Below, one piece after another: positions 1-14,287 of a stretch of DNA of 14,287 bases. Origin of the DNA: an uncultured Gammaproteobacteria bacterium. GTDB taxonomy: Bacteria > Pseudomonadota > Gammaproteobacteria > Rariloculales > Rariloculaceae. The stretch is from the NCBI GenBank assembly GCA_946887385.1, contig CAMPKU010000106.1, positions 1 to 14,287 of the forward strand, read 5' to 3'. Each line of letters begins with the position of its first letter. Positions within the stretch are counted from its first letter, which is position 1. The translations under genes were made by a program, and so were the position numbers. The notes beneath the pieces were generated by a model, which searched no databases, was not told where the DNA came from, and saw nothing but the letters and a program-made list of their open reading frames with translations.

Positions 1-1430
1 ATGACGTCGATGCGGCGGTTGCGGGCACGGCCCTGCTCGGTGTCGTTGTTGGCGATGGGCTGCGTTTCGCCGTAGCCGACTGAGCTCATCCGGTACGCCG
101 GCACGCTGAGCTCGCTCGCCATGAACGCGGTGACGGCCTCGGCCCGCCGCCGCGATAACGCCAGATTGCTCTCGTCACCGCCGTAAGAATCCGTGTGCCC
201 TTCGATGGTGAGCTGCGAGCGCGGGAACACGTCGGCGGCCTGCCGCAGCTTCTCGAGCAACGGCCGATACGTTGGCCGCACGACGTCCTGACCGCTCTGG
301 AACGTGAGCCCCACGAGCCGAATGACCATGCGATTGCCCTCGCGCGAAACGCGCGCCTCATCGCGCCCGAACATGTTCTCGATCGCGGCGAACTGCTCGC
401 GGATGCGCTCCTCGGCCTCGAGCCGCTGCACGAGCGCCACGCGCTCCTGCGACACGCCGCCCAGCCGTTCGTCGAGATCGCGAATCTCTTCCTCGAGGTC
501 GGCCACGCGCGCGCGTGTGTCGGCAAGGTCGCGCACGCTTTGCGCCGACTGCTCGCGCAGCCCTTCGATGTACGCCACGAGCTCCGTGACGACCGGCTCG
601 ATGCCGTTGTCGAGCTGAGCCGCCTTGTCGGCGGCGGCGCTGATGTCGAGGAGCGGCTGCTCATAGCTCAGGATCAGGTCCTCGAGCGATTGATCCTCGG
701 CGCGCAGCCGGTCGATCAATCCTGCGAGATAAATCGCGTGGCGCGCTTCGTAGTTCGCTTGCTGCGCGAGGCTTCGAGGCAGGTCCGTGTCGTAGCGGTT
801 CTCGTTGAGCTCGCGCTCGGCCTCCGCCAGCAAGGAGCGCGCCTTTTCGTAGGTGCGAGGCGCAACCCGCGGCACTCGCGCTTGCTCGGCCTCGGCAAGC
901 AGCGCGCGCGTTTGACTCAGGTATTGCGCCTTGATGGCCGTGAGCTCCGCGTCGCGGAACAGGGTCTCGGCCTCGTCGGCGCGGCTGCGCGCACCGCGGA
1001 TGTCGCCGTTCTCGAGGCGCCGCGCAGCGGAATCGAAACTGCTGCCCGCTTCGGCCCACAGCTCGGCGGCGAAGGTAGCCGCATTCGCATTGGCGGCGTC
1101 GGCGCGCGTCTTGATGACGGCGGCGAGCGTGACATTAGCGATCTCGGCGGCTTCGCCGGCTTCCGTGAACGCGCGTGTGGCCGTGGCGAGGCCGCTGCGA
1201 ATGCGCTCGATGTTGCGGCCGCGCGCAAAATCGCTCTCTGCGCTTGCATACGCTTCGCGGCCGCGCGCGAATGTGGCCGGCGCGAGCAGCTCGGCATCGG
1301 CCGCGCGCGCTTGCTCGAGAGCGCGGTTCGACTCCGCGAACAAAGTGGCCCGCAAGTCTTCTTGGGCGGGCGCCCGCAGCGCAACCATCGTGAGCAGACA
1401 AGCGAGTACGGCGAACCGAGTCAAAGTCAT
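1..1430 (-). CDS. OmpA-family outer-membrane/peptidoglycan-binding protein with DUF4398-like N-terminus (C-terminus cut by window edge)
   Basis: The frame is open from the ATG at 1430 to base 1, giving 476 complete codons with no stop in the window. Residues 1-22 look like a signal peptide (hydrophobic core, then APA before QED). Residues about 24-130 form an Ala/Arg/Glu-rich helical stretch like DUF4398. About 255-330 is a heptad-type coiled coil (ADLEEEIRDLDERLGGVSQE). About 366-476 is an OmpA C-terminal domain with TIEGHTDSYGG, NLALSRRRAEAV and GRARNRRIDV. In this family the Asp of HTD and the Arg of the LSxRRA helix bind diaminopimelate of peptidoglycan. The start is supported by GGAG 6 bases upstream and a strong promoter. 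Likely role: periplasmic or outer-membrane anchoring to the cell wall. An early V-L-A-C could mimic a lipobox, but the hydrophobic core continues past it. The family call is firm; the specific function is unknown. Confidence 0.9.
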   Translation of the reverse strand, partial: MTLTRFAVLACLLTMVALRAPAQEDLRATLFAESNRALEQARAADAELLAPATFARGREAYASAESDFARGRNIERIRSGLATATRAFTEAGEAAEIANVTLAAVIKTRADAANANAATFAAELWAEAGSSFDSAARRLENGDIRGARSRADEAETLFRDAELTAIKAQYLSQTRALLAEAEQARVPRVAPRTYEKARSLLAEAERELNENRYDTDLPRSLAQQANYEARHAIYLAGLIDRLRAEDQSLEDLILSYEQPLLDISAAADKAAQLDNGIEPVVTELVAYIEGLREQSAQSVRDLADTRARVADLEEEIRDLDERLGGVSQERVALVQRLEAEERIREQFAAIENMFGRDEARVSREGNRMVIRLVGLTFQSGQDVVRPTYRPLLEKLRQAADVFPRSQLTIEGHTDSYGGDESNLALSRRRAEAVTAFMASELSVPAYRMSSVGYGETQPIANNDTEQGRARNRRIDV

Positions 1431-1457
1431 CGCGTGCTCCGGCACAACCAAGCCTTC

Positions 1458-1873: not shown

Positions 1874-2371
1874 TCAACGATAGCGAACACCCGTGACCTC
1901 GTAGCGCCGTTCGCCCTCGGGCGTGCTTACCGCGATCTCCACGCCCGGCGCCTTGCCGAGCACCGCGCGGCCGAGCGGCGAATCGACACTGATGTAGTCC
2001 GGTGCGGCGTCGAGCTCGTCGGGGCCCACGAGCCGATACTCGCGGCAACGGCCATCGTCGTCTGCGAGCTCGAACCATGCACCGAAAAACACTTTGCTGG
2101 TATCGGCGGGCGGCTGATCGACCACGCGAATGCCGGTGAGCCGCTTGCGTAGAAAGCGCACGCGCCGGTCGATCTCGGCGAGCTGCCTCTTGCCGTAGAT
2201 GTATTCGGCGTTCTCGGAGCGGTCGCCTTGTGCTGCCGCCTCGGCCACGGAGCGCGTGACCGCGGGGCGCTTGACTCGCCAGAGCTCGTCGAGCTCCATG
2301 CGCAGCCGCTTCGCGCCCTCGGGCGTGATGTACTTCGCGCCCGGCGGCCGTGGCGCACGATACCGGCCCAT
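1874..2371 (-). CDS. greB: Transcription elongation factor GreB
   Basis: 165 aa, close to the usual GreB length of about 160. GreB enters the secondary channel of backtracked RNA polymerase and stimulates cleavage of the displaced RNA 3' end. The N-terminal antiparallel coiled coil (about 14-80) carries the tip motif GDRSENAEY with the catalytic acidic pair D50 and E53. The GreB-type signature [15 protein letters not shown] begins the C-terminal FKBP-like domain (about 93-165), which continues with RLVGPDE and [18 protein letters not shown] text. These segments follow E. coli GreB rather than GreA. The start at 2371 is preceded by AGGGG at normal spacing. It diverges from lipA across a gap of about 60 bp, so the two promoters probably interleave. 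The N-terminal extension ([13 protein letters not shown]) is slightly longer than in E. coli. Confidence 0.96.
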
Positions 2372-2391
2372 AACACCCCTTTTGCTTGGCG

Positions 2392-2400
2392 TGCGATACT
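2392..2400 (+). promoter_or_regulatory. Candidate extended -10 promoter for lipA-sohB
   Basis: TGCGATACT fits an extended -10 (TGn followed by a 4-of-6 match to TATAAT). No -35 is evident. Predicted start is near 2407, giving a leader of about 28 bases if lipA starts at 2435. It lies inside the greB-lipA divergent gap. Confidence 0.35.
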
Positions 2401-2434
2401 CGATCGCGTCGATTGGGCGATGTTAGCAAGCAAG

Positions 2435-3421
2435 ATGACCGAGTTCCGCGGCATTCCCGTCGTTACGACGGGCGCCAAATACCAAACCGAGCACGGATTC
2501 GCCGCGATCAAGAACGGCGTCAAGGCGCGAGCCGATCGGCAACACACGCGGCGCGAGCCGAAACCGCCGTGGCTCAAGGCGCGCGTGCCGGCGGGCGAGC
2601 GTTTCGAGCAGCTGCGCAGCACCGTGCGCGAGCATCGGCTTGCAACCGTGTGCGAAGAATCGATCTGCCCGAACATCGGCGAATGCTGGAACCACGGCAA
2701 CGCCACGATCATGCTGATGGGCAAGGTCTGCACACGCGCCTGCCAGTTCTGCGCCGTCGATACGGGTAATCCGCGCGGCTGGCTCGATCCCGAGGAAATC
2801 GCGAACTCCGCGCGCACGGTGGAGCTGATGGGGCTGCGCTACGTGGTGCTCACGTCGGTCGATCGCGACGATTTGCCTGACGGCGGCGCCAAGCATTACG
2901 CCGACTGCATTCGCGCCATCAAGTCGCGATGCCCGCAGACGGCGGTGGAGGCGCTCACACCGGACTTCGCGGGCAGACTTGCCGATGTCGCGACGGTGGT
3001 GGACTCCGGTGTCGACGTGTTCGCGCAGAATCTCGAGACCGTGGAGCGGCTCACGGGCAGAGTGCGCGACGCGCGCGCCGGTTACCGCCAAACGCTTTCG
3101 GTGCTCGCATTTGCGAAGCAGCACCGCGCGCAGGTGCTGACCAAATCGAGCCTGATGCTCGGTCTTGGCGAAACCGAAAACGAGGTGCTCGCGGCGCTCG
3201 ACGACCTCAAAGCGGCCGCCGTCGACATCGTGACGTTCGGCCAATACTTGCGTCCCACGCCGAACCATCTGCCCGTCGAGCGCTATGTGACGCCGCAGGA
3301 ATTCGACGCCTACCGCCGCTTTGGCCTCGAGCGCGGCTTTCTCGAGGTGGTGGCCGGTCCGCTCGTGCGCTCGAGCTATCGCGCCGACCGCGTGTTCGAG
3401 AAGAACAACGTGGGACTGTAG
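2435..3421 (+). CDS. lipA: Lipoyl synthase LipA (radical SAM)
   Basis: Inserts two sulfurs into the octanoyl chain on carrier proteins to make the lipoyl cofactor of pyruvate and 2-oxoglutarate dehydrogenases and the glycine cleavage system. All hallmarks are present: auxiliary cluster CX4CX5C (C73, C78, C84), radical-SAM CX3CX2C (C99, C103, C106), and the C-terminal RSSY (312-315) whose Ser ligates the auxiliary cluster. 328 aa from the ATG at 2435; an in-frame ATG at 2420 would add five residues. Neither start has a good ribosome site. I prefer 2435 because the candidate promoter leaves a more normal leader. The text resembles mitochondrial/plastid-type LipA ([26 protein letters not shown]) more than the E. 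coli type (CTRRCPFCDVAHG). The usual HN before ETV is QN here. lipB is not adjacent. sohB follows after 5 bp. Confidence 0.96.
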
Positions 3422-3426
3422 ACGCG

Positions 3427-4410
3427 GTGCGCGAGTTCTTCGCCGCATATGGCCTGTTCCTCGCGCAGCTCGGGACTTTCATCCTGGTGCTCGTCGTTGC
3501 CGCGGTGTTCATCATTGCGTCGCGCCGCCGCGGGCAGGCCGAAGGCCTCGTGGTCGAGCACCTGAATCGCCAGTTCGAGGACGCGGCCGACGAGCTCAAG
3601 CTGGCCATCGAGGGCAAGGGGCGGTTCAAGAAAGCCATGAAGCTGCGGCACAAGGAGCGCAAGCGCGAGGATAAGGCGCGCGCGTCCGACGGCAGCGGTA
3701 AACCGAGACTGTTCGTGCTCGATTTCAAGGGCGATTTACGGGCGAGCGCAGCGGCGTCTCTGCGCGAGGAAGTGTCGGTCATCTTGCGCGTGGCCCGAGC
3801 CGGGGAGCAGGTGCTCGTGCGGCTCGAGAACTCCGGCGGCACCGTTCATGAGCACGGCTTCGCGGCCTCGCAGCTGGTGCGCTTGAAGCAGCATGGCCTG
3901 AAGGTGCTCGTGGCCGTGGACAAGGTGGCCGCGAGCGGCGGGTACTTGATGGCATGCGTCGCCGATCGGCTCATCGCCGCGCCATTCGCCATCGTGGGCT
4001 CGATCGGCGTGCTGACGCAGCTGCCGAATTTCCATCGGCTGCTCGAAGAGAAGGGCGTGGACTACGAGCAGATCATGGCGGGGCGCTACAAGCGCACGCT
4101 CACCGTGTTCGGCAAGAACACGGACGAAGGCCGGGCCAAAGTTCAGCAAGAGGTCGAAGACATCCACGAGCTGTTCAAGAATCAAATTCGCGAGCACCGG
4201 CCGCAGGTGGACCTCGAGCGCGTAGCGACGGGCGAGCACTGGTACGGCACACGCGCCCTCGAGCTCAAGCTCGTCGATGAGCTGAAAACCAGCGACGACT
4301 TGCTGCTCGAGTCGGCGAAGGACCACGACCTCTACCGCTTGAGCTTCAAGCGCCGCCGGAGCTGGCAGGAGCGTATGCTCGGCGGCGCAGAGAGCTTGCT
4401 CACGCGCTAA
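3427..4410 (+). CDS. sohB: SohB-type inner-membrane S49 serine protease
   Basis: 327 aa from a GTG at 3427, five bases after the lipA stop; E. coli SohB is about 350 aa. Residues 10-32 are one hydrophobic membrane helix (LFLAQLGTFILVLVVAAVF), followed by a basic, charged linker (about 33-92). The S49 (SppA/SohB) protease domain spans about 94-300. The Ser/Lys dyad is visible: S170 in KVAASGGYLMACVAD and K222 in AGRYKRTLTVFG. GSIGVLTQLPNF and ATGEHWYG are close to E. coli SohB. Family role: a membrane-tethered peptidase facing the periplasm, thought to degrade signal peptides or damaged membrane proteins. GTG is the only plausible start that gives a proper membrane anchor; the frame is open upstream only as a shadow inside lipA. 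Very likely co-transcribed with lipA. Confidence 0.93.
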   Translation: MREFFAAYGLFLAQLGTFILVLVVAAVFIIASRRRGQAEGLVVEHLNRQFEDAADELKLAIEGKGRFKKAMKLRHKERKREDKARASDGSGKPRLFVLDFKGDLRASAAASLREEVSVILRVARAGEQVLVRLENSGGTVHEHGFAASQLVRLKQHGLKVLVAVDKVAASGGYLMACVADRLIAAPFAIVGSIGVLTQLPNFHRLLEEKGVDYEQIMAGRYKRTLTVFGKNTDEGRAKVQQEVEDIHELFKNQIREHRPQVDLERVATGEHWYGTRALELKLVDELKTSDDLLLESAKDHDLYRLSFKRRRSWQERMLGGAESLLTR

Positions 4411-4496: not shown

Positions 4497-5168
4497 ATGA
4501 CGGACTCCATCGCGCCGCGGCTTGCCGCCGCGCTGCTCTATTCATTCGCGACGCTCGGCGTTGCCGCCGACGAACCGGACGGCGGTGCCCGCATGCCCGG
4601 CCCGAGCGAGTGGTCGGCGACGATGACCCGTGCCGACGTGGTGCTCGGGCGCATCGATGCCGATCACGACGACGCCTATTTGTACCGCCTGCCGTACGCC
4701 GGCGACGTAAGCTTCCCGATTATCCAAGGTTACGACGCGAAGCTCAGCCATCACGGCGCGGAACGCTTCACCCTCGACTTCGGGATGCCCGTGGGCACGC
4801 CGGTTCACGCGGCGCGCGACGGCGTGGTCGTGCTCGTCGAGGACTCGCACGCCGTGGGGTGCGCGCGCGAGGAGTGCGGCCGGCTCGCGAATTTCGTGGT
4901 GGTGCTGCACTCCGACGGCACCACCGGCGAGTACTTCCACCTCGAGCGGGGCAGCGTGGCGCTGCGCGTGGGCGACCGCGTCGCGCGAGGTCAGCCGCTC
5001 GCGCGCTCCGGCAACACGGGGTACAGCACGGCCCCACATCTGCACTTCGGCGTCTATCGCACGGGCCGCGACGGCAGCACCCAGGCCCTGGCCGTGCGGT
5101 TCCAGACGCGAAGCGGCCCCATCGGCACGCCCCGCAGCGGGGCGCACTACTTGCACCCGCATCAATAG
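4497..5168 (+). CDS. Exported M23-family (LytM-like) peptidoglycan endopeptidase
   Basis: 223 aa. Residues 1-24 form a signal peptide (core AAALLYSFATLGV, cleavage near AA before DEP). The M23 domain covers about 75-190: SHHGAERFTLDFGMPVGTPV with zinc ligands H86 and D94, GEYFHL with H148, and HLHFGV with H181/H183. H148 and H181 are the expected catalytic histidines. The H-to-D spacing (8) is longer than in LytM (HxxxD), as in M23 subfamilies with an 'H...LDF' form. C122 and C127 flank a small loop and could form a disulfide. The full zinc set predicts an active enzyme cutting cross-links in peptidoglycan, with no LysM or SPOR targeting domain. GAGG lies immediately against the ATG, too close for a normal ribosome site, and an AAC-repeat leader precedes it. 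A CATACT at 4454-4459 is a weak -10 candidate. Next gene: the L,D-transpeptidase. Confidence 0.88.
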   Translation: MTDSIAPRLAAALLYSFATLGVAADEPDGGARMPGPSEWSATMTRADVVLGRIDADHDDAYLYRLPYAGDVSFPIIQGYDAKLSHHGAERFTLDFGMPVGTPVHAARDGVVVLVEDSHAVGCAREECGRLANFVVVLHSDGTTGEYFHLERGSVALRVGDRVARGQPLARSGNTGYSTAPHLHFGVYRTGRDGSTQALAVRFQTRSGPIGTPRSGAHYLHPHQ

Positions 5169-5199
5169 GCTGCCACGCGGATCGGCGGCGCGACTTAGG

Positions 5200-5227
5200 T
5201 ATACTCCCGGGACGTCTCTGGGGAGGG
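5200..5227 (+). promoter_or_regulatory. -10 element and strong ribosome site ahead of the L,D-transpeptidase
   Basis: TATACT at 5200-5205 is a 5-of-6 match to the -10 consensus, though no -35 is recognisable at 16-18 bp. GGGGAGGG at 5220-5227 is a very strong Shine-Dalgarno sequence ending 10 bases before the ATG at 5238, which fixes that start. Start of transcription would be near 5212, giving a short leader and implying that the gene need not depend on read-through from the M23 gene. Confidence 0.45.
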
Positions 5228-5237
5228 TACGCGCGTC

Positions 5238-6398
5238 ATGCATCGACCGAGCCGCGCCGTTTTGCTCACGTCCATTCAGGTTAGCGCGGCAGCTACGCTG
5301 CTCTGCGGCTGCTCGCTGCTGACGGCGCCGCGCCAGGCGCCCGTTCCGGTAGTAGCGGCCGCCCCGGCAGCCCCGGATCCCGCGGCCCCGCGGCTCGCCG
5401 CACTCGACACGCGGCACTTCACGCTGGCGCCGCGCGACGAGCTCGTCGGCGAAACGCAGGTGATCTTCGCCCGTTACGAGAACACCTTCTCCGCGATCGG
5501 CCGGCAGTACAACTTGGGCTACGAGGAGATGCGGCGCGCGAATCCCGGCGTGGATCAATGGTTGCCCGGCGAGGGCACGCCGATCTATCTGCCCACGCAA
5601 GCCATTCTTCCGGACGCGCCGCGCGACGGTATCGTCATCAACGTGCCGGCGATGCGGCTCTTTTATTACACCGTCGAAAAAGGCGGCGATGCCGCAACGC
5701 CCGACGTCGTCAAGGTTTCGAGCCATCCCGTCGGCATTGGCACGCAGGGTTGGGCCACGCCGTTCGGCGAGGCGAAGGTGACGCAGAAGGCGCGCGATCC
5801 CGTCTGGTACGTACCCGCGTCGGTGCGCAAGGAGCACGCCGAGCGCGGCGATCCGCTGCCGAGCGTGGTGCCGCCGGGGCCCGACAATCCGCTCGGCAAA
5901 TTCGCCATGGCACTTTCGCTGCCGGGCTATCTGATTCACGGCACGAACAAGCCGGCCGGCGTGGGCATGCGCTCGAGCCACGGCTGCATTCGCCTCTATC
6001 CCGAGGACATCGAGGCGCTGTTTCCGCGCGTCGGGCGCGGCACGAACGTGCGGCTCGTGAACCAGCCCGTGCTCGCGGGATGGCGGGACGGCCAGCTCTA
6101 TCTCGAGGTGCATCCCCCGCTCGCCGAGGAGCAGCACGATCTCGTGGCGGAAGCCGACGCCGCGCTCGCCCGCGCGCTTGAACGAGCCGGCGCAGCCGCG
6201 GCTGCGATCGAGATCGATCGAGCCGCCATCGAAACGATCGTGGCCGAGCAGCGCGGGATCCCGCTTCCCGTTCTGCGTACGGGGCGCTCGCTGGGACAGT
6301 ATCTAGCGGCCGCGCGGATCGTCGAGAACACGGTTCCGCTCTCGCTTGCGGAGGAGACGGCACAGCTCGCGGAGCCGCCCTCTGGCGTAGGCCGTTAA
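5238..6398 (+). CDS. LysM/YkuD L,D-transpeptidase lipoprotein (ErfK/YbiS-like)
   Basis: 386 aa. Family enzymes form 3-3 cross-links in peptidoglycan or attach Braun-type lipoprotein to it. The N-terminus has a hydrophobic core and a lipobox L-C-G-C (C25 lipidated, Ser at +2, so outer-membrane directed), then a Pro/Ala linker (30-55). A LysM-like module covers about 74-120 (FSAIGRQYNLGYEEMRRANPG). The YkuD domain covers about 130-285, with HGTNKP at 234-239 and SSHGCIR containing H248 and the nucleophile C250. Its layout matches E. coli YbiS/ErfK, whose usual length is just over 300 aa. Here an extra Ala/Glu-rich tail of about 80 residues follows (helical, ALARALERAGAAAAAIEI). The active site is intact. 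It pairs with the M23 endopeptidase upstream: one enzyme opens cross-links, the other remakes them. The rhomboid gene starts 39 bp downstream. Confidence 0.93.
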   Translation: MHRPSRAVLLTSIQVSAAATLLCGCSLLTAPRQAPVPVVAAAPAAPDPAAPRLAALDTRHFTLAPRDELVGETQVIFARYENTFSAIGRQYNLGYEEMRRANPGVDQWLPGEGTPIYLPTQAILPDAPRDGIVINVPAMRLFYYTVEKGGDAATPDVVKVSSHPVGIGTQGWATPFGEAKVTQKARDPVWYVPASVRKEHAERGDPLPSVVPPGPDNPLGKFAMALSLPGYLIHGTNKPAGVGMRSSHGCIRLYPEDIEALFPRVGRGTNVRLVNQPVLAGWRDGQLYLEVHPPLAEEQHDLVAEADAALARALERAGAAAAAIEIDRAAIETIVAEQRGIPLPVLRTGRSLGQYLAAARIVENTVPLSLAEETAQLAEPPSGVGR

Positions 6399-6437: not shown

Positions 6438-7106
6438 GTGATTCCGATTCGCGACGACAATCCCGTGCGCGGCGTTCCCGTCGTCACGGTCCTCACGATT
6501 GTCGCGTGCATGGCGGTGTACGTCTGGCAGCTGTCGCTGCCGCCGGAAACGTCGCAAGCGGCCGTCACGCTGCTCGGCTTCATGCCGGGCGTCCTGTTCG
6601 GTTATGCGCGCATCGAGGGCAACCCGTGGGTATCGCCGGCGGGCTCCATCTTCACGGCCATGTTCTTGCACGGCGGGTTCTTCCACCTGGCCGGCAACAT
6701 GCTCTATTTGTGGATTTTCGGTGACAACGTCGAGGACCGCGTGGGGCGCGGCCGCTTCATCGCCTTCTACCTGATTTGCGGCGCTATCGCAGCGCTCGCC
6801 CAAGCGTTGCCCGACACGCGGTCGACGGTGCCGATGATCGGTGCGAGCGGCGCCGTCTCCGGTGTGCTCGGCGCCTACGTCGTGCTGTACCCGCGCGCGA
6901 ACGTGCTGGTTGCGATGCCATTTTGGGTCGCGCGCGTGCCGGCGCTCTTCGTGCTCGGAGTGTGGTTCGTGGCGCAGCTCGCGCAGTCGCTGCTCCTCGA
7001 GCCGGGCGCCCCCGGAGTCGCTTTTACGGCCCATATCGGCGGCTTCATCGGCGGTGCGGTGCTGATCCGCTGGTTTTTGCGCGAGCGGCGAAAGCGCGAG
7101 GACTGA
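6438..7106 (+). CDS. Rhomboid-family intramembrane serine protease
   Basis: 222 aa from GTG at 6438 (text MIPIRDDNPVRGVPVVT, the typical bacterial rhomboid opening, decides the start despite no visible Shine-Dalgarno sequence). Several membrane segments: about 12-32, 45-58, 70-95, 105-124, 133-151, 165-187, 194-214. The catalytic dyad is S137 in IGASGAVSGV and H199 in TAHIGGFIGG. HGGFFHLAGNMLYLW supplies H83 and N87, the oxyanion-hole residues. The family cleaves transmembrane helices in the inner membrane. No extra soluble domain is present, so the natural substrate cannot be read from the sequence. A C-terminal basic tail (RERRKRED) should face the cytoplasm. A GC hairpin (6408-6413 / 6420-6425) lies 12 bp before the GTG and might affect initiation. 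It follows the L,D-transpeptidase and precedes the sheath-like gene on the same strand. Confidence 0.93.
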   Translation: MIPIRDDNPVRGVPVVTVLTIVACMAVYVWQLSLPPETSQAAVTLLGFMPGVLFGYARIEGNPWVSPAGSIFTAMFLHGGFFHLAGNMLYLWIFGDNVEDRVGRGRFIAFYLICGAIAALAQALPDTRSTVPMIGASGAVSGVLGAYVVLYPRANVLVAMPFWVARVPALFVLGVWFVAQLAQSLLLEPGAPGVAFTAHIGGFIGGAVLIRWFLRERRKRED

Positions 7107-7123
7107 CAACTCCCCGACACATG

Positions 7124-7140
7124 CGATGCTGCAAGCATCG
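7124..7140. repeat. Perfect 7-bp inverted repeat between rhomboid and sheath-like genes
   Basis: CGATGCT (7124-7130), spacer GCA, AGCATCG (7134-7140). No T-run follows, so it is not a standard terminator. It sits about 12 bp upstream of a TATCAT (7152-7157) that could be a -10 box for the sheath-like gene, so an operator is possible. The arms are short enough that chance cannot be excluded. Confidence 0.35.
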
Positions 7141-7185
7141 GCGGCGCCGGCTATCATGCCTGCGTCTTTTCCAACCGCGGCCAGA

Positions 7186-8751
7186 ATGGCGTCCGAACCT
7201 GTCGACTTCAGCTCCGGCCCGGGCGAGCCCCACGACGGCGCTGAAGTCATCCCGATCGTCGTTCAGACTGTCGTGGCGTTCATCGGTCGTACGGAGCGCG
7301 GTCCGTTGAACGAGGCCGTCGTCGTCAAGAGCTACGACGACTTCACTCGTGTGTTCGGCGGCCACACCACCTTCAGCTTCGTGTCGTGGGCCGTGCAGCA
7401 CTTCTTCTGGCACGGCGGCGAAGTGGCTTTGATCGTGCGCGTGGCCAATCGTGCCACGCGGGCCGCGCTCGAAATTCCTGCTGGCCGCGAAATCCTGCGG
7501 CTGCAAGCGCGACAGCCGGGCAGCCGCGAGCACCTGCGTGCCTCCATCGACTACGACCGCGTCGAGCGCACACCCGACAAGTTCAATCTGGTGGTTCAGC
7601 GCGTCTCTCGGCCCGGCTCGCAGCTCGTCGACGACCAGGAAGTGTTCGAGGGCTTGTCGATGGATCCGACCGACGAGCGGTTCGTGGTCGACGCGCTCCA
7701 GGAGTCCGACCTCGTCCGGCTCGTGGGGCCGCTGCCGAGCTACCGGCCCGGTGCGACGCGAGCGGCGCACCCCGGTCAGCCGATACCTTATATAACGATC
7801 AAGCAGGCGGGCACCGACGGCGAAGAGCTCACGGACTACGACATCATCGGGTCGAACGCCGAAGGCACGGGATTGTTCGCGCTCGATCGCTGCGAACGCG
7901 TCGACCTCGTTTGCGTGCCGTCGCCGCCGGGGCACGATTTGGGGAGCACGAGCTTCGTGGCGGCTACGCGGTACTGCGAAAAGCGCCGCGCCGTGCTCGT
8001 CTGGGATCCGCCGTGGGCGTGGACGAGCGCCGACTCGGCCGTGCTCGCGCTGCGCACGTCGGGGCAAGCGAGCCGCCACGCGCTGACGTATTTCCCGCGC
8101 GTGCGGCCCCGCGGCGACCTTGGCCGCTATGGTGCCGGGATGCCGGCTTGCGGCGTCGTGGCGGGCATGCTCGCGCGCTGCGATCAAGCCGGCGTTTGGC
8201 ATCGAATGCCGGCCGTCGATGCCACGCTCAAAGGCGGGCTTGCACCGCTCGTCGAGATCGGCCAGAAACCGGCCGCGACGCTGCAGCGCCTCGGCGTCAA
8301 CACGTTCATGCGTCTGCAGCCGGGCGTCGCGGCGCTCCAGGGTAACGTGAGCTTCGCGGGCTCCGCGGCGCTCGATTCGCTCTGGCAAAGCTTGTCCGTT
8401 AGCCGCCTCACGTCGTTCGTGCTGCGCTCGATCGAGGCGGAAACCCGCTGGGTATTCACCGCCGAGCGCCTCGACCAGCTTGCGGCCGACCTCGAGCGGC
8501 AAGTGTGGATCTTCTTGTCCCGCTTGAAGCAGCGCGGTGCTCTTGCGGGCGCCACCGCCGACCAGGCGTTCTTCGTGCGGACGAGCGCTGCGCACGAGCC
8601 CGAGGAAGGGCGCGACGTCTCCATCGCGCTGCGCATCGGGTTCGCACCGCGCGAGCCGAACGAGTTCCTCACCTTCGACTTCCGCTATCACTCCGCAACG
8701 CTCATGACCGAAGTGCGGCCCGTGCGCGATGCGGAGCGGCATCTCGGCTGA
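7186..8751 (+). CDS. Contractile tail-sheath-like protein (orphan)
   Basis: 521 aa from the ATG at 7186; in-frame ATGs at 7126 and 7156 would give 541 and 531 aa, and none has a ribosome site. The N-terminal part reads VVAFIGRTERGPLNEAVVV...F...FGG and SFVSWAVQHFFWHGG, the usual opening domain of tail sheaths. About 265-310 is the subtilisin-like-fold region (VLVWDPPWAW ... ALTYFPRVRP). About 335-505 is the sheath C-terminal domain: GVWHRMPAV, LRSIEAETRWVFTAERLDQL, FLSRLKQRGALAGATADQAFFVRTS and IGFAPREPNEFLTFDF. Family role: six-fold stacked subunits that contract around a tube in myophages, tailocins and other contractile injection systems. Missing here: the N-terminal PGVYVEE arm, and any tube, baseplate, AAA ATPase or lysis gene nearby. 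Base composition matches its neighbours. The family assignment is strong; function without partners is unknown. Confidence 0.85.
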   Translation: MASEPVDFSSGPGEPHDGAEVIPIVVQTVVAFIGRTERGPLNEAVVVKSYDDFTRVFGGHTTFSFVSWAVQHFFWHGGEVALIVRVANRATRAALEIPAGREILRLQARQPGSREHLRASIDYDRVERTPDKFNLVVQRVSRPGSQLVDDQEVFEGLSMDPTDERFVVDALQESDLVRLVGPLPSYRPGATRAAHPGQPIPYITIKQAGTDGEELTDYDIIGSNAEGTGLFALDRCERVDLVCVPSPPGHDLGSTSFVAATRYCEKRRAVLVWDPPWAWTSADSAVLALRTSGQASRHALTYFPRVRPRGDLGRYGAGMPACGVVAGMLARCDQAGVWHRMPAVDATLKGGLAPLVEIGQKPAATLQRLGVNTFMRLQPGVAALQGNVSFAGSAALDSLWQSLSVSRLTSFVLRSIEAETRWVFTAERLDQLAADLERQVWIFLSRLKQRGALAGATADQAFFVRTSAAHEPEEGRDVSIALRIGFAPREPNEFLTFDFRYHSATLMTEVRPVRDAERHLG

Positions 8752-8761
8752 GCGTAGCGCG

Positions 8762-8801
8762 GCCGCCGCGGGCGGCGTGCCGGTGACGGCGCTCGCGCCG
8801 T
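8762..8801 (+). repeat. Two adjacent GC-rich hairpins after the sheath-like gene
   Basis: Hairpin 1: GCCGCC (8762-8767) / GGCGGC (8771-8776). Hairpin 2: ACGGCGC (8786-8792) / GCGCCGT (8795-8801), where the closing pair probably opens. They lie 10-50 bp past the stop at 8751. No T-run follows, so they may stabilise the mRNA end or slow polymerase rather than act as standard terminators. Confidence 0.4.
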
Positions 8802-8816
8802 GCTAGCAGCAGCGCC

Positions 8817-8839
8817 GAATCTCAAGATGCTAGAGATTC
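8817..8839. repeat. 7-bp inverted repeat upstream of the 88-aa exported protein
   Basis: GAATCTC (8817-8823), 9-base spacer, GAGATTC (8833-8839), perfect arms. It lies about 110 bp before the next ATG in an unusually AT/pyrimidine-rich stretch (8835-8900), so it could be an operator. A weak downstream pyrimidine run makes a poor terminator also possible. Confidence 0.3.
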
Positions 8840-8947
8840 CTCGGTCTATCTTTGGCTGCGCTTCGTCTTTCTTCGGCACTTCCGCATGTTTCTACAGATG
8901 GAAAGGGACTAACTTGTCGTCCATCGGAGATTCAACAGGGGTTTGCC

Positions 8948-9214
8948 ATGAACACGTTGCGAATGTTGACTGTAGGGATGGTGTTCGCTGCTGCCGCAAC
9001 CGCGGGCATGGCGGCCACCGATTTGAATATTCACGAGGTCACGGTCACGGCGGAACGCCCGCACGCGGCCGCGCTCACCGTCGAACGGGTAGCGCCCCGA
9101 ACGCCGGTCGAGAACACGTTCGTCATGCCCACGGACATGCCCGAAGCCGAGATCGATTATCACTTGTCGCCGATCGCCGCTCCCCCCGCGGCCGACGAGC
9201 CAGTGACGTCGTAG
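8948..9214 (+). CDS. Small exported protein of unknown function, 88 aa
   Basis: ATG at 8948 has AGGGG seven bases upstream, a clear ribosome site. Residues 1-23 are a textbook signal peptide (MNTLRMLTVGMVFAAAATAGMAA, cleaved before TDLN). The mature part is about 65 residues with no cysteines and no second membrane segment. Just after the cleavage site it reads IHEVTVTAERPH, very like the first residues of mature TonB-dependent receptors (EVxVTAxR), but no plug or barrel follows. The rest is acidic and Pro-rich (MPTDMPEAEIDYHLSPIAAPPAADEP), probably disordered. The message ends in a branched RNA structure at 9226-9295, suggesting its own transcription unit. It could be a tiny periplasmic protein or the decayed head of a receptor gene. 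I do not recognise a named family. Confidence 0.7.
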   Translation: MNTLRMLTVGMVFAAAATAGMAATDLNIHEVTVTAERPHAAALTVERVAPRTPVENTFVMPTDMPEAEIDYHLSPIAAPPAADEPVTS

Positions 9215-9225
9215 CTGAAGGCACA

Positions 9226-9295
9226 GGCGGTCGCAATATCGGACGCGGGCAGCGTCTGCGAGGGACAAGCCCTCGATTGCGACCGCCCTTTCTTT
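9226..9295 (+). terminator. Three-way-junction RNA structure ending in a T-rich tract (terminator or structured 3' UTR)
   Basis: Outer stem of 12 perfect pairs: GGCGGTCGCAAT (9226-9237) with ATTGCGACCGCC (9276-9287). Inside it are two hairpins. One is GACGC (9242-9246) / GCGTC (9252-9256) with a possible G-U extension. The other is CGAGGG (9259-9264) / CCCTCG (9270-9275), which abuts the outer stem and could stack on it. Then TTTCTTT at 9289-9295. It begins 12 bases after the stop of the 88-aa gene. Almost every base is paired, which is unlikely by chance. At minimum this is a terminator; it might also be a processed 3' small RNA. Confidence 0.7.
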
Positions 9296-9305
9296 GGATG
9301 CGAGG

Positions 9306-9342
9306 CCTAGCGGCCGGCCCTTCAGCCGGCCGCAGGCGTTTT
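9306..9342 (+). terminator. Second rho-independent-type terminator
   Basis: Nine perfect pairs GCGGCCGGC (9310-9318) / GCCGGCCGC (9325-9333) with loop CCTTCA. They are extended by CCT (9306-9308) pairing with AGG (9334-9336) around one bulged A. TTTT lies at 9339-9342. It comes directly after the branched structure, so transcription from the left is doubly stopped before the next promoter. Confidence 0.65.
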
Positions 9343-9387
9343 CTAGGCGCCGTTTTCCTTACACCCTAGCGCCGCAATGCCGCACTC

Positions 9388-9416
9388 CTGACAGCGACGT
9401 GGAAAAAATCTATCCT
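9388..9416 (+). promoter_or_regulatory. Sigma-70 promoter of the SnoaL-like gene
   Basis: CTGACA (9388-9393, 5 of 6 to the -35 consensus), exactly 17 bp, then TATCCT (9411-9416, 4 of 6 to the -10). The region just upstream of the -10 is A-rich. The predicted start near 9423 gives a leader of about 21 bases carrying AGGAGAGG seven bases before the ATG at 9444. Confidence 0.65.
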
Positions 9417-9443
9417 CGACTCAACACGAGGAGAGGATTCGTC

Positions 9444-10007
9444 ATGCCACGCCAGTTGCCCACGCATCGCTTCCCACACGCCCTGGCCGCCGCCGCGGCA
9501 TTGCTGCTGTCGCTCGCCACGCCGGCGCCGGCGCAGCAGGTGACGATGGAAACTTTGCTCGACCGCATCCAGATCGAAGACTTGCTAGTGCGCTATTACT
9601 ACGATCTTTCGATGGGCAGAGCCCATGAGATGTCCGAGTACTTCACGGCAGATGCCATGCTCGACGTCGACGGCACGATCGCCAACGGCCGGGCGGAAAT
9701 CGAAAAACTGTATGGCGGCGGCTCCACGCGCGACGCATCTCGGCCGCGCAATCACATGCTGCTGACCAACCCCGTGATCGAGATCAAAGGCAATCGGGCG
9801 CAAGCCCATGTGCTCTGGACCGGCGTCACGAACAAAGGCGTCGGCGAAACGCCCAGTCTCTACGAGCAGGGGCGCGAGGATACGGAGCTCGTCAAGGTCG
9901 ACGGCAAGTGGCTCATCAGCAAGCGCTACATCAGCTCCGACAGCGGGTTGCCGGATCGCTTCGACCAGACTTTCGAGCAGCGCGACAACCCGCTCGACCC
10001 GCTCTAG
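9444..10007 (+). CDS. Exported SnoaL-like / NTF2-fold protein
   Basis: 187 aa from the ATG at 9444, chosen for its strong ribosome site AGGAGAGG and a signal peptide at 1-30 (core ALAAAAALLLSLA, cleavage APA before QQV). Residues about 36-165 match the SnoaL-like (NTF2 superfamily) cone fold: helix IEDLLVRYYYDLSMG, FTADAMLDVDG, then an RNHMLLTNPVIEIKG strand and a final strand GKWLISKRYIS. In characterised relatives, pocket Tyr, Asp and His residues serve dehydratase or isomerase chemistry. Candidates here are Y51/Y52, D73/D75 and H104, but no reaction can be assigned. The signal peptide places it in the periplasm, unlike most catalytic SnoaL enzymes. It has its own promoter behind two terminators, and converges on the membrane-protein gene with a 9-bp gap and no terminator between. 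Confidence 0.85.
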   Translation: MPRQLPTHRFPHALAAAAALLLSLATPAPAQQVTMETLLDRIQIEDLLVRYYYDLSMGRAHEMSEYFTADAMLDVDGTIANGRAEIEKLYGGGSTRDASRPRNHMLLTNPVIEIKGNRAQAHVLWTGVTNKGVGETPSLYEQGREDTELVKVDGKWLISKRYISSDSGLPDRFDQTFEQRDNPLDPL

Positions 10008-10016
10008 CGCAGTGCC

Positions 10017-10787
10017 CTACGCGAGAACCGCGCGTCGCTTCAACCGAAGCATGTACGCCAGCACAGCGATGGCCAATGGCATGCCGGCAAGCATCGTGAC
10101 CCGAACGTCGAAGTACGGTTTTGGCTCCGCGGCCACCGTCAATAGGATCGTGTAAAGCACTCCACCCGCTAGATAGGCGCCGAACAGGCCGACGGACCTC
10201 TTGCGGAGCCGCAAGAACATGACCATCGACGCCAGCAGCGTCGCGGACATCAGGTACAACGGCGCCCACTCGAGCACGGACAGCGACTCGCGCACGGAGC
10301 GCGCTTCGATCGACAGGGCCGGCGGAGCGGAGAACAGGAGCCAGGACAGCGCCAGCGACGCGAGTAGCGCGCCAAGCCCAAGCGTGATTGCAATTACCCA
10401 CACGAGCGCGGGCCGCGTGCGTCCTGCCGCGCTCTTCGCCGTGATCACCTCGCGGTTACGCACGACGCGCGTCTGCCGCTTCCTCGCCCCGGCGGCCGTC
10501 GCGGCGGCCAACGCGGGCCCCTCGTCGTCGGGGTTCGGCGGATCGCCGGCATCGTCGTCCTCGCGGTTCTTGAGGCGCTTCGCTTCTTGGACGATTCGAA
10601 AATCCGGATCGGCGACGTTGCCGAGCCCCATGAAAGGCGCCAGCGCGGCGGCAATGACGTATGCGCGCTTCGCGCGCCGGCGTGCCCACACGATGGCCCG
10701 ATAGAGGACGAAAGCCAGGCCGCAAATGAAGATCGCCAGCGTCGCTACGGTGAGCAACGCATCGGTCAATGGGGAGCTTCCATCCAT
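10017..10787 (-). CDS. Multi-pass inner-membrane protein of unknown function
   Basis: 256 aa from the ATG at 10787, chosen because AGGAG lies eight bases upstream; an in-frame start at 10817 would add ten residues without a good ribosome site. Hydrophobic segments lie at about 8-33, 127-153, 172-193, 199-220 and 229-248. Between the first and second is a long hydrophilic loop (about 34-126) with an acidic Pro-rich patch (REDDDAGDPPNPDDEG) followed by a basic one (RKRQTRVVRNR), probably cytoplasmic. No catalytic or transporter motif is recognised. The amphipathic MGLGNVADPDF after the first helix might be a re-entrant or membrane-surface element. It lies downstream of the antitoxin-like gene on the same strand and could be co-transcribed with it. 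Confidence 0.75.
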   Translation of the reverse strand: MDGSSPLTDALLTVATLAIFICGLAFVLYRAIVWARRRAKRAYVIAAALAPFMGLGNVADPDFRIVQEAKRLKNREDDDAGDPPNPDDEGPALAAATAAGARKRQTRVVRNREVITAKSAAGRTRPALVWVIAITLGLGALLASLALSWLLFSAPPALSIEARSVRESLSVLEWAPLYLMSATLLASMVMFLRLRKRSVGLFGAYLAGGVLYTILLTVAAEPKPYFDVRVTMLAGMPLAIAVLAYMLRLKRRAVLA

Positions 10788-11239: not shown

Positions 11240-14200
11240 TCAAGGCGAGCCGTAGCCGCCGCCGCCCGGCGTCTCGATCACGAACCGGTCGCCCGCCGCG
11301 AGCTGCGCCGCGGCCGTCGCGCCAAGCTCTTCCCGGCGCCCATCCGCGCGCAGCACGTAGTTGCGCCCGCACGAGCCCGGCGAGCCGCCCGCCAAGCCGG
11401 AAGGCGGTATGCGCCGCCGGTTGGAGAGAATCGCCGCCTGCACGGGCTCGAGAAATTGCAGCTCGCGCACCACGCCGTCGCCGCCACGCCAACGGCCGGC
11501 GCCGCCGGAGCCGCGGCGAATTGCAAACCGTGTCACTCGCACCGGGAAGCGCTGCTCGAGCACCTCGGGATCGGTGAGGCGGGAGTTCGTCATGTGGGTG
11601 TGGACGGCGCTGGCGCCGTCGAAGCTCGGCCCGGCGCCGGCGCCGCCGCACAGCGTTTCGTAGTACTGAAAGCGTTCGTTGCCGAACGTGAAGTTGTTCA
11701 TCGTGCCTTGGCTTCCCGCGCACGCGCCGAGCGCGGCGAGCAGCGCATCGGCGATGCATTGCGACGTCTCGACGTTGCCCGCCACGACGGCCGCTGGAGG
11801 GCGCGGATCGAGCAGGCATGCCTCGGGCAGCACGATCGCAAGCGGCTCGAGGCAGCCGGCGTTCAAAGGAATGCTCTCGCGCACCAGCGTGCGAAATACG
11901 TACAGCACCGCTGCGCGGACAATCGACGTGGGAGCGTTGAAGTTGCCCGGGCTCGCCGGCGAGGTGCCCGTGAAATCGACGGTCGCCCGCCGCCGCGCGG
12001 CGTCGACGCGCACGGCCACACAGATGCGCTCGCCGCCGTCGAGCTCCACCGTGGCCTGGCCGTCGCGCAATGCAGCGATGGCAGCCCGCACGCAGGCTGC
12101 CGCGTTGTGCTGTACGTAGCGCATGTAGCGCTGCACGGTGCGGATGCCAAATCGCCCGATGACACGCTCGAGCTCTACAACACCGCGCGCGTTGGCGGCC
12201 AGCTGCGCCTTCAAGTCGGCCACGTTCTGATCGGGATTGCGTGCCGGAAATCGCCCGCGCGCGAGCAGGGCGCGCAGCTCGGTCTCGAGCAACGTGCCTG
12301 CTTTGACGATTTGCACACCGTCGAAGAGCACGCCTTCCTCGTCGATGGTGCGGCTCGAGGGCGGCATCGACCCCGGCGTGGTACCGCCCACGTCGGCGTG
12401 ATGCGCGCGGCTTGCAACGAAGTAACGCAATCGCCGGCCGCGCGCGTCGAAGACGGGCGTCACCACGGTGAGGTCCGGCAAGTGCGTGCCGCCGTTGTAC
12501 GGCGTGTTCAATAAATACGCGTCGCCGCGCGCCAGGTGCTTCGAGCGCAGGATGCTTTGCACGCTGTCGCCCATCGAGCCCAAGTGCACGGGGATGTGCG
12601 GCGCGTTGGCGATCAGCGAGCCGTCGGCGTCGAACACCGCACAGGAAAAATCGAGCCGCTCCTTGATGTTCACCGAATGAGCCGTGTGCTCGAGCACAAT
12701 GCCCATCTCTTCGGCCACGTGCATGAACAGGTTGTTGAACACCTCGAGCATGATCGGGTCGGCTTCGCGGCGCAGCGACTCGCGGCGCGTGCGCCGGCCG
12801 AGCCGTGTGAGCAGCAAGGTGCCGCTTGCGTGCACCTGCACGCGCCAGCGTGGCTCCACGATGGTGGTGGCGTGCGCCTCCACGATCAACGCCGGACCCG
12901 TGAAGCGCGCGCCCGCTGCCAGGGTGGCGCGATCGTACACGGGCACGTTGCGCCACCCGTCGCACCACACGTCGCGCCGCGCGATCGGCTTCGCCGCTTT
13001 GCCCTCAGTGCGCAGCGCCGGCGCGGCCGGCGACACGGCCACTCCGGGCACTACGGCCTCGAGCTCGAGCGATTCGACGACGAGCGTGACGTCGGGGTCG
13101 ATGCGGAAGCCGAAATGCCGCGCGTGCAGGTCGGCAAACGCGGCGTGAAGCTCGCCGACCGCGGCCGCCGCGTGCCACGCCACGGCTAGCGAGGTGTCGG
13201 CGCCCGCTGCCTTCAAGAGCAGCCGCCGCTCGAGCCGCACGCGCCTTGGGTCGGCGCCTTGCTCGCGAAATGCGTCGAGCGCGTGCGACGCGAGAGCATC
13301 GAAGCGGCCAGCGAGCGTGCTCGCAACGGCGTCGTCGAGCGGCGCTTCGACGCTCGCCTGGCGCAGCATTCGGGCGTCGGCCACGCCGATCCCGTAAGCG
13401 GACAGCACGCCGGCCAAGGGATGAATGATGACGGTATCGATGCCCAGCGCTTCGGCCACTTGTGCCGCGTGCTGCCCGCCGGCCCCGCCGAAAGAGCAGA
13501 GCGCGAAGCGCGTGACGTCGTGGCCGCGCTGCACGGAGATTTGCTTGATGGCGTTCGCCATGCGCTCGACGGCGATCCGCACATATCCCGCGGCGAGCCG
13601 CTCGGGGCTCGGCTCCTCACCCGTCGCCGCGCCCACGTCGCGGGCCAATGCTGCGAAGGCCGCTCGCGTGGCGCTCGCGTCGAGCGGCTCGTCGGCGCGC
13701 GGCCCGAATACACGCGGAAAGAAATCCGGGGCGATTCTGCCGAGCAGTAGATTCGCGTCCGTCACCGTGAGCGGCCCGCCGCGGCGGTAGCACTTGGGGC
13801 CGGGGTCGGCGCCTGCCGAGTCGGGGCCCACCGTGAGCCTCCCCAGGCGGAACGCCAGGATCGAGCCGCCGCCCGCGGCCACCGTTTGAATCTTCAGCAT
13901 CGGCGCGCTCACATGAACGGCCGCGATCACGGCGTCATGGGTTCGCTCGAGCTCGCCGGCGTACAGCGCCACGTCGGTGGACGTGCCGCCCATGTCGAAG
14001 CCGATGACTTCCGAGCAGCCCACCGCCTCTGCGGCACGCACCATGCCGATCACGCCGCCTGCGGGCCCCGACAGCAGGCTGTCTTTGCCGCGAAACCGAT
14101 CCGCTGCCGCGAGGCCGCCGTGACTTTGCATGAAGTACAGCGGCGCGTTCGCGCGCGACGCCTCGAGCCCGGTGCGCACGCTCGCAACGTAGCGATCGAG

Positions 14201-14287
14201 CACCGGCGAGAGGTAGGCGTCGGCCAGTGTCGTGCCGCCGCGCGCACCGAGCTTCGGCAGCGGCAGCACGCGATGCGAGATCGACAC
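11240..14287 (-). CDS. Fused HyuA-HyuB hydantoinase / 5-oxoprolinase (N-terminus cut by window edge)
   Basis: 1015 residues remain; eukaryotic-type 5-oxoprolinases are about 1250-1290 aa, so roughly 200 or more N-terminal residues lie beyond the edge. The family hydrolyses 5-oxoproline or hydantoin-type rings using ATP, in the cytosol. HyuA half (to about 500): SHRVLPLPKLGARGGTTLADAYL, SHGGLA, LSGPAGGVIG and the ATPase-fold motif GFDMGGTSTDVAL at about 96-108. HyuB half (about 508-1015): MLEVFNNLFMHVAEEMG, NAPHIPVHLGSMGDS, NTPYNGGTHLPDL, SRAHHADVGG followed by TPGSMPP, and the C-terminal PGGGGYG. The junction is a short Arg-rich linker (TRLGRRTRRESLRREAD). The frame is unbroken and both halves look intact. 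The exact substrate cannot be told: 5-oxoproline, hydantoins and N-methylhydantoin enzymes share these motifs. The promoter is outside the window. Confidence 0.93.
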   Translation of the reverse strand: MSISHRVLPLPKLGARGGTTLADAYLSPVLDRYVASVRTGLEASRANAPLYFMQSHGGLAAADRFRGKDSLLSGPAGGVIGMVRAAEAVGCSEVIGFDMGGTSTDVALYAGELERTHDAVIAAVHVSAPMLKIQTVAAGGGSILAFRLGRLTVGPDSAGADPGPKCYRRGGPLTVTDANLLLGRIAPDFFPRVFGPRADEPLDASATRAAFAALARDVGAATGEEPSPERLAAGYVRIAVERMANAIKQISVQRGHDVTRFALCSFGGAGGQHAAQVAEALGIDTVIIHPLAGVLSAYGIGVADARMLRQASVEAPLDDAVASTLAGRFDALASHALDAFREQGADPRRVRLERRLLLKAAGADTSLAVAWHAAAAVGELHAAFADLHARHFGFRIDPDVTLVVESLELEAVVPGVAVSPAAPALRTEGKAAKPIARRDVWCDGWRNVPVYDRATLAAGARFTGPALIVEAHATTIVEPRWRVQVHASGTLLLTRLGRRTRRESLRREADPIMLEVFNNLFMHVAEEMGIVLEHTAHSVNIKERLDFSCAVFDADGSLIANAPHIPVHLGSMGDSVQSILRSKHLARGDAYLLNTPYNGGTHLPDLTVVTPVFDARGRRLRYFVASRAHHADVGGTTPGSMPPSSRTIDEEGVLFDGVQIVKAGTLLETELRALLARGRFPARNPDQNVADLKAQLAANARGVVELERVIGRFGIRTVQRYMRYVQHNAAACVRAAIAALRDGQATVELDGGERICVAVRVDAARRRATVDFTGTSPASPGNFNAPTSIVRAAVLYVFRTLVRESIPLNAGCLEPLAIVLPEACLLDPRPPAAVVAGNVETSQCIADALLAALGACAGSQGTMNNFTFGNERFQYYETLCGGAGAGPSFDGASAVHTHMTNSRLTDPEVLEQRFPVRVTRFAIRRGSGGAGRWRGGDGVVRELQFLEPVQAAILSNRRRIPPSGLAGGSPGSCGRNYVLRADGRREELGATAAAQLAAGDRFVIETPGGGGYGSP

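Follow-up and report, generated by a model that had tools for sequence, protein, structure and literature searches.

A lone contractile-sheath gene inherited through Steroidobacterales and its probable domestication as a non-contractile scaffold

A Sheath Gene without Tail Genes

The 14,287-nt stretch of gammaproteobacterial DNA analyzed here (contig CAMPKU010000106.1; "the window" throughout) contains a gene for a contractile-tail sheath protein of 521 aa, encoded by the open reading frame (ORF) 7186..8751 on the forward strand. An earlier note, made from the letters of this DNA, had described an orphan sheath with four sheath motifs at this place, and the coordinates, the length and all four motifs in the translation were verified. 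Judging from genome comparison, the gene is inherited through the order Steroidobacterales, mostly in single copy and within a recurring neighborhood, and nearly all carriers lack recognizable genes for a tube or a terminator. This protein and its relatives are referred to below as lone sheaths, as distinct from the sheaths of contractile injection systems (CIS).

Sequence and predicted fold both place the protein in the contractile-tail sheath superfamily, which bears out the family assignment made from the motifs. The protein matches PHROG 23 tail sheath (E 3.3e-23) and, over residues 17–500, the sheath structures 9ezm (phmmer, E 7.7e-31) and 8bky (E 4.1e-29), so that homology to sheaths spans most of its length; its predicted structure, a comparison that the note had asked for, is a sheath fold with 9ezm as the best Foldseek match. 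Neither Pfam-A (E ≤ 0.001) nor NCBIfam (E ≤ 0.1) has a family matching it, and routine annotation may therefore overlook this sheath; some close homologs do carry precomputed assignments to the phage sheath families PF04984 or PF17482. An alternative in-frame ATG upstream, at 7126, would extend the protein to 541 aa, but 7186 is the likelier start, since most close homologs listed begin at MASE.

The window proteins scanned (PHROG, NCBIfam, Pfam) include no member of a tail family, barring one PHROG collar match (E 0.05) of the small ORF downstream, which we take for chance; the note had likewise seen no tail genes nearby. The M23 peptidase, L,D-transpeptidase and rhomboid that it had listed as neighbors were confirmed by Pfam (Table 1), and the GC content along the sheath gene (0.65–0.71) lies inside the range of the window (0.61–0.74), in keeping with its remark on base composition.

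Table 1. Features of the window other than the sheath ORF as a whole
Feature	Position	Strand	Remarks
OmpA-family protein	3..1451	-	PF00691; extends to window edge
GreA/GreB-type transcription factor	1874..2371	-	Family scan
Lipoyl synthase-like (LipA) radical SAM protein	2228..3421	+	PF04055, LIAS_N; coordinates of the longest ORF, real start probably internal
SohB-like S49 peptidase	3424..4410	+	PF08496, PF01343; start approximate
M23 peptidase	4497..5168	+	PF01551, E 1e-21
L,D-transpeptidase	5238..6398	+	YkuD and Ldt_C (Pfam); most widely linked neighbor
Rhomboid protease	6438..7106	+	PF01694, E 1.6e-36; directly upstream of sheath
Candidate -35 element CTGCAA	7129..7134	+	Common to close relatives; post hoc pattern
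Candidate -10 element TATCAT	7152..7157	+	Spacer 17; 28 nt before ATG
Sheath, N-terminal arm, residues 1–19	7186..7242	+	Predicted disordered, pLDDT <50; CIS linker motif PGVY(V/I)EE absent in alignments
Sheath, domain 3 equivalent, residues 89–236	7450..7893	+	From alignments, also folded alone; in lone sheaths well conserved and of nearly uniform length, in CIS sheaths highly variable
Sheath, C-terminal domain, residues 341–500	8206..8685	+	Fold retained; CIS near-invariant positions 381, 413, 428 unconserved
Small ORF without family	8852-9214		Between sheath and hydantoinase
SnoaL-like protein	9294-10007		Between sheath and hydantoinase
Fused hydantoinase A/B-like protein	11240..14287	-	Family scans; convergent, downstream; cut by window end

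Distribution of Lone Sheaths

Genome-wide tests were run on relatives, standing in for the genome of the window. The order sample comprised 296 genomes from the order of Steroidobacter (Steroidobacterales, Gammaproteobacteria according to NCBI) and was searched with a profile (A2) of 17 lone sheaths, whose score gap relative to CIS sheaths is partly circular; loci L080–L099 lie outside the profile. It matched 232 of the 296 genomes, with a single match in 214 (hand count). In 224 of the 232 (also by hand count), designated strong carriers, the score lies above that of the best CIS sheath of the class sample (2.7e-123), and the eight weaker matches (hand count; G029, G037, G112, G211, G217, G246, G268 and G287) may be CIS sheaths or fragments. 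The closest copy, in G004, is syntenic and 72% identical to the window protein; as this nearest relative belongs to the order sample, the window is assigned to the same order. The one GTDB contig recovered by a pattern scan (L001) encodes a 48% identical sheath within the order GreB–LipA–SohB–rhomboid–sheath–HydB, as in the window; 23 of the 39 relatives around its genome match the sheath, G029 and G037 among these with CIS-like scores only.

Protein searches located the lone sheath in named Steroidobacter and Peristeroidobacter species, and the G066 copy shows 100% identity, across 95% of the query, with ACG33_01610, a hypothetical protein of Steroidobacter denitrificans. These searches returned 751, 4427 and 3817 relatives at E ≤ 1e-3 (about 8000 candidates scored in each), part of which may be ordinary sheaths. 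Public names of members include phage tail sheath protein FI, tail protein, Bacteriophage tail sheath protein and hypothetical protein, so that surveys relying on such names could count too many CIS or prophages.

Of the 398 genomes in the phylum sample, 34 have a match at E ≤ 1e-10, with a lone-type score in G001 (the sample center) only and G434 next (1.9e-96). The class sample gave 15 matches among 369 genomes at E ≤ 1e-50; five are order members with lone-type scores, and of the ten others G975, situated at a contig end, was omitted from the tree. Among mobile elements, 72 of 72,556 plasmid records match, all below 60% identity (best 33%) and 41 with coverage of at least 80%; phage records contributed four weak partial matches in 50,697, and no relative was confirmed among IMG/VR contigs in a scan reaching close relatives only.

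Origin from Injection System Sheaths

A tree of 58 sequences places 42 lone sheaths on one side and 15 CIS sheaths together with one sheath from G434 on the other; the dividing branch has a support of 100/100 and is present in 100% of 200 bootstrap trees. Adding eight class-sample sheaths in a second tree left the split unchanged (27 lone versus 23 CIS). On this phylogenetic evidence, the sampled lone sheaths share a single origin from CIS sheaths. The closest sheaths found beyond the order are gammaproteobacterial CIS sheaths (L132–L134, L136–L139; 355–411 bits to the lone-sheath profile), which, unlike lone sheaths, are clustered with other CIS genes and have an intact linker motif PGVY(V/I)EE. 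Pfam confirms an adjoining tube in five of the eight class-sample loci (L132, L136–L139) and additionally a baseplate protein, Pvc16 and an AAA protein in L132; L133, L134 and L140 share cluster genes with these CIS loci by BLAST, the tube of L134 having been missed by the ORF caller.

A second lone sheath was noticed in G434 (locus L114, G434:C22), where the sheath, taken as its longest ORF (8233-9861, -), overlaps an ORF for an AAA fragment (9858-10463, -) amid metabolic genes. As in nearly all carriers of the order, no tube match was found in this genome; unlike the lone sheaths of the order, this protein branches with CIS sheaths in both trees, and by that placement it is a separate, independent event.

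Search for Partner Genes

The tube family PF06841 was detected in 11 and the terminator family PF14065 in 6 of the 296 order genomes, against 232 for the sheath. Eight of the 224 strong carriers have a tube match (G027, G043, G115, G136, G202, G215, G232, G271) and one more (G210) has a terminator match only; the remaining tube-bearing genomes are G029, G085 and G140. Sheath and tube lie on separate contigs in all seven tube-bearing carriers with a listed sheath position, and in G027 the tube has its own adjoining sheath. The PF06841 model readily detects tubes adjoining CIS sheaths of the same class. In G066, G095 and G221 the sheath lies on one roughly whole-genome contig, and these genomes are absent from the tube and terminator positives, so assembly gaps are not the cause of the absence there. 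In the loci of 41 relatives, where Pfam covered only some ORFs, no tube was recognized beside the sheath.

Of the baseplate families, GPW_gp25 was above the cut-off in two of 23 relatives (G027, G029), with a sub-threshold match in G030, and Baseplate_J was found in none of 12 chosen carriers, one of which (G215) has a tube match; of four genomes entered as CIS-bearing, three were positive (G029, G398 and, barely above the cut-off, G027) and G115 was negative.

The arrangement in G434 suggested a lone CIS-type AAA protein as a partner, and this candidate was sought in 117 order genomes. At E ≤ 0.001, 113 of them match, but only five matches are stronger than 1e-28 (G025, G027, G029, G043, G115), four of these in tube-bearing genomes; the others are 1e-13 or weaker, mostly ORFs of 600–700 aa presumed to be FtsH-like. 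G025 has a strong AAA match and no tube match: ORF 5121-5813 (-) of its contig G025:C90 (L144) encodes part of a CIS-type AAA protein, with 47% identity to the fragment in G434, and its lone sheath lies on another contig.

Conservation of the Locus

Neighborhoods were inspected in 41 relatives' loci (L001, L022–L041, L080–L099) rather than in all 232 genomes; counts come from tblastn with the window genes, a crude GC-position ORF heuristic used elsewhere having missed true genes such as the L,D-transpeptidase of the window. Sheath identity to the window ranges from 31 to 72% across these loci, and the same gene order surrounds copies of 31–50% identity. An L,D-transpeptidase gene lies upstream on the same strand in 28 of the 41 loci, LipA and SohB upstream in 17 each, GreB in 16, OmpA in 14, the rhomboid in 8 and M23 in 2, while the hydantoinase is convergent downstream in 16 and upstream once. 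The linkage to the rhomboid, on which the earlier note had put weight, thus holds in few of these loci and that to the L,D-transpeptidase in most. In other lineages the sheath neighbors include LemA, TPM, M13, M48 or zinc peptidases, a glycosyltransferase and GPAT.

The lone sheath has its own conserved promoter-like element in most of the nearest relatives of the window. The pattern CTGCA(A/T)-17-TANNAT stands 23–28 nt before the start in seven of 21 loci, the window included, and L031 and L032 have it with a spacer of 16 at 61 nt; it is missing from 12, of which L001, L029 and L030 still retain a -10-like half. The search pattern, CTGCAA/T-N16-18-TANNNT, was devised after viewing the upstream regions (L027, with an uncertain start, was omitted), and its background was 11 matches in 611,156 nt on both strands, the nine locus matches included. 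A scan for consensus sigma-70 promoters found none upstream of the sheath.

The ratio dN/dS (omega), a check that the earlier note had proposed, was 0.098 (L031/L032), 0.127 (L001/L025) and 0.215 (window/L022) by our own counting script; such values show purifying selection as far as these codon comparisons reach.

Shift of Constraint

Constraint was compared between pairs of equal overall identity (20–40%; 606 lone, 165 CIS). Alignment columns follow the window sequence, which favors the lone set, and identity matching lessens this bias. Mean identity in lone versus CIS sheaths was 0.17 versus 0.48 at the N-terminus, 0.46 versus 0.36 at residues 21–88, 0.42 versus 0.21 at 89–236, 0.35 versus 0.28 at 237–340 and 0.26 versus 0.45 at 341–500. 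Lone sheaths have an eroded CIS linker PGVY(V/I)EE, and the window and its closest relatives lack the motif; a looser version of this N-terminal pattern fits 21 of 23 CIS sheaths but 13 of 42 lone ones. Three positions near-invariant in CIS sheaths, 381 (G, 22/23), 413 (E, 22/23) and 428 (N, 23/23), are variable in lone sheaths and occupied by V, L and R in the window, whose protein therefore shows neither of the two marks sought in a working contractile sheath, the linker motif and the C-terminal near-invariant residues.

We assign residues 89–236 as the counterpart of domain 3, a surface domain in CIS sheaths. The region measures 148–153 aa in all 42 lone sheaths versus 16–449 aa in the 23 CIS sheaths, and eight residues (D122, F133, N134, Q151, E152, S174, R187, P188) are fixed in 42 of 42; the same residues occur, in that order, in 7, 11, 10, 2, 13, 15, 8 and 18 of the 23 CIS sheaths, five to eight of which have gaps. 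Part of this set is therefore a CIS inheritance, and other residues, Q151 foremost, distinguish the lone family. Folded on its own, the domain reached a pLDDT of 75.4, and the sole chain matching this model at E ≤ 0.001 was the sheath 9ezm (8.6e-4), the P1 sheath being next (0.14). Fibronectin-type matches of the isolated domain (E > 1) were not accepted as kin, and other folds are conceivable. We infer from the shifts in constraint that selection for contraction has ceased and that the function now resides in domain 3.

A Domesticated Sheath and Its Alternatives

Domestication of the sheath is very likely, and an adaptor is the best of several models for its present role. A cellular role had been one of the two inferences of the earlier note, and it gains support from the order-wide, mostly single-copy and syntenic occurrence, the purifying selection, the monophyly and the lack of recognizable tail genes. 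As an overall explanation of the sequence record, a domesticated sheath serving as a non-contractile scaffold or adaptor seems to us probable. We also think it rather likely that the exaptation happened once, at the base of the order, yielding a non-contractile cytoplasmic housekeeping scaffold in which the formerly variable surface domain became the functional site. The lone sheath would then be a cytoplasmic protein whose subunits may still associate via the remaining core contacts, with domain 3 presenting a conserved face that binds one fixed partner. Envelope maintenance or stress would be the likeliest context because of the old linkage to the L,D-transpeptidase, among other envelope enzymes.

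Several observations weigh against this explanation. The linker seems to have eroded gradually, since 13 of the 42 lone sheaths still fit the loose motif, and lone sheaths keep R407 (41/42), W422 (38/42) and G386 (23/42), so that some lattice contacts may persist. Several of the fixed domain 3 residues are shared with CIS sheaths: among the 18 with an aligned position, P188 occurs in 18, S174 in 15 and E152 in 13. The tie to the envelope is read from gene order, which is weak evidence, and inspection by eye shows no signal peptide. No sheath match was obtained in 64 of the 296 order genomes (completeness of these metagenome-assembled genomes not given), and the 20 of them listed include, besides small genomes of 1.3–1.6 Mb, others of 3.0–6.7 Mb; the sheath may accordingly be dispensable in some lineages, or have been missed there. 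Three pairs underlie the omega values, which lack comparison with a control gene. The Baseplate_J model is a weak test because two tube-bearing genomes (G115, G215) escaped it, and a tube or partner diverged past Pfam recognition would escape detection.

The main rival holds that the lone sheath self-polymerizes into contracting or stiffening tubes (polysheath). These would act as a filament inside the cell or as a device for cell death, making the lone sheath a reduced relative of the cytoplasmic CIS of Streptomyces. The complete sheath fold of the predicted structure speaks for it. An excerpt of PMC6357053 describes the phage FV3 sheath gp053 as assembling without other viral proteins, even when as many as 25 residues are removed from the N-terminus and 100 from the C-terminus, and a portion of PMC11566945 reports contracted Halogeometricum sheath preparations in which Cis2 was the only protein of the CIS cluster seen by mass spectrometry. 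We nevertheless hold polymerization of this kind to be unlikely: the linker and the C-terminal residues near-invariant in CIS sheaths are unconserved in lone sheaths, and without a tube nothing would keep the extended state or be driven. One could also imagine that the sheath belongs to a minimal contractile machine, with tube and baseplate encoded elsewhere in the genome and diverged past recognition, given that the tests covered Pfam-recognizable families in relatives and that Baseplate_J overlooked tube-bearing genomes; it strikes us as quite improbable when the recurring neighbors in 41 loci are ordinary enzymes, the lattice parts are under relaxed constraint and the tube model readily finds tubes beside CIS sheaths of the same class.

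Other readings fare worse. Sheath homology and a lone gene with its own promoter-like element would suit an anti-phage decoy subunit that poisons the sheath assembly of infecting phages or rival CIS. Its order-wide, syntenic occurrence under purifying selection is a pattern that most defense genes do not show; PADLOC found no defense-model match among 7 window proteins, and with so few phage matches and none confirmed in IMG/VR by a scan reaching close relatives only, we give a decoy very little credence. The other inference of the earlier note, a sheath supplied in trans to a distant recognizable CIS or phage tail cluster, could draw on the eight strong carriers with a tube match and on G210, but the tube and terminator counts contradict it for nearly all carriers, and the separate contigs and the sheath adjoining the G027 tube leave it highly improbable. 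A recent prophage scrap or decaying pseudogene, to which the phage-type protein might point, is close to untenable, as the note had already thought of a fresh scrap: no phage neighbors were found among the window proteins scanned, composition stays inside the range of the window, omega is low, and syntenic copies occur in G004 and at much lower identity elsewhere.

Relation to Known Systems

The cytoplasmic CIS sheath Cis2 of Streptomyces coelicolor (PDB 9gts, 9gtp, 8bky, 8bl4) works in a contracting particle with tube, baseplate and cap, whereas the lone sheath has no recognized genes for these parts and no linker motif, and its domain 3 is conserved, not flexible. In Streptomyces CIS, according to an excerpt of PMC10066040, contraction is blocked when the N-terminal linker is lengthened, and domain 3 escapes resolution because of its flexibility. 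The sheath of the haloarchaeal type VI secretion system-like CIS of Halogeometricum borinquense (9ezm), the best match by both sequence and Foldseek, has a comparable domain at the position of domain 3; unlike the lone sheath, it sits in a cluster of fourteen structural genes, as a portion of PMC11566945 states.

To our knowledge, known domestications of contractile tails keep the entire injection machine. No report of the lone sheath family was found in the open-licence PMC literature, among the top-ranked results of long listings; as far as that literature shows, this would be the first described case in which an order has retained a sheath and no further component of an injection machine. 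If a lone sheath has indeed persisted across an order with its pattern of constraint inverted, individual components of a tail are able to turn into core proteins of the cell. Lone sheaths also offer a natural variant for telling contraction residues from others, and their occurrence in Steroidobacter and Peristeroidobacter, cultured environmental bacteria with no known pathogenicity, makes them testable. For metagenome surveys the family is a caution that a sheath match by itself is not proof of an injection system.

A smaller observation concerns the region behind the sheath gene: the SnoaL-like gene between sheath and hydantoinase was recovered by tblastn in 0 of the 41 relatives' loci and therefore looks like a recent insertion.
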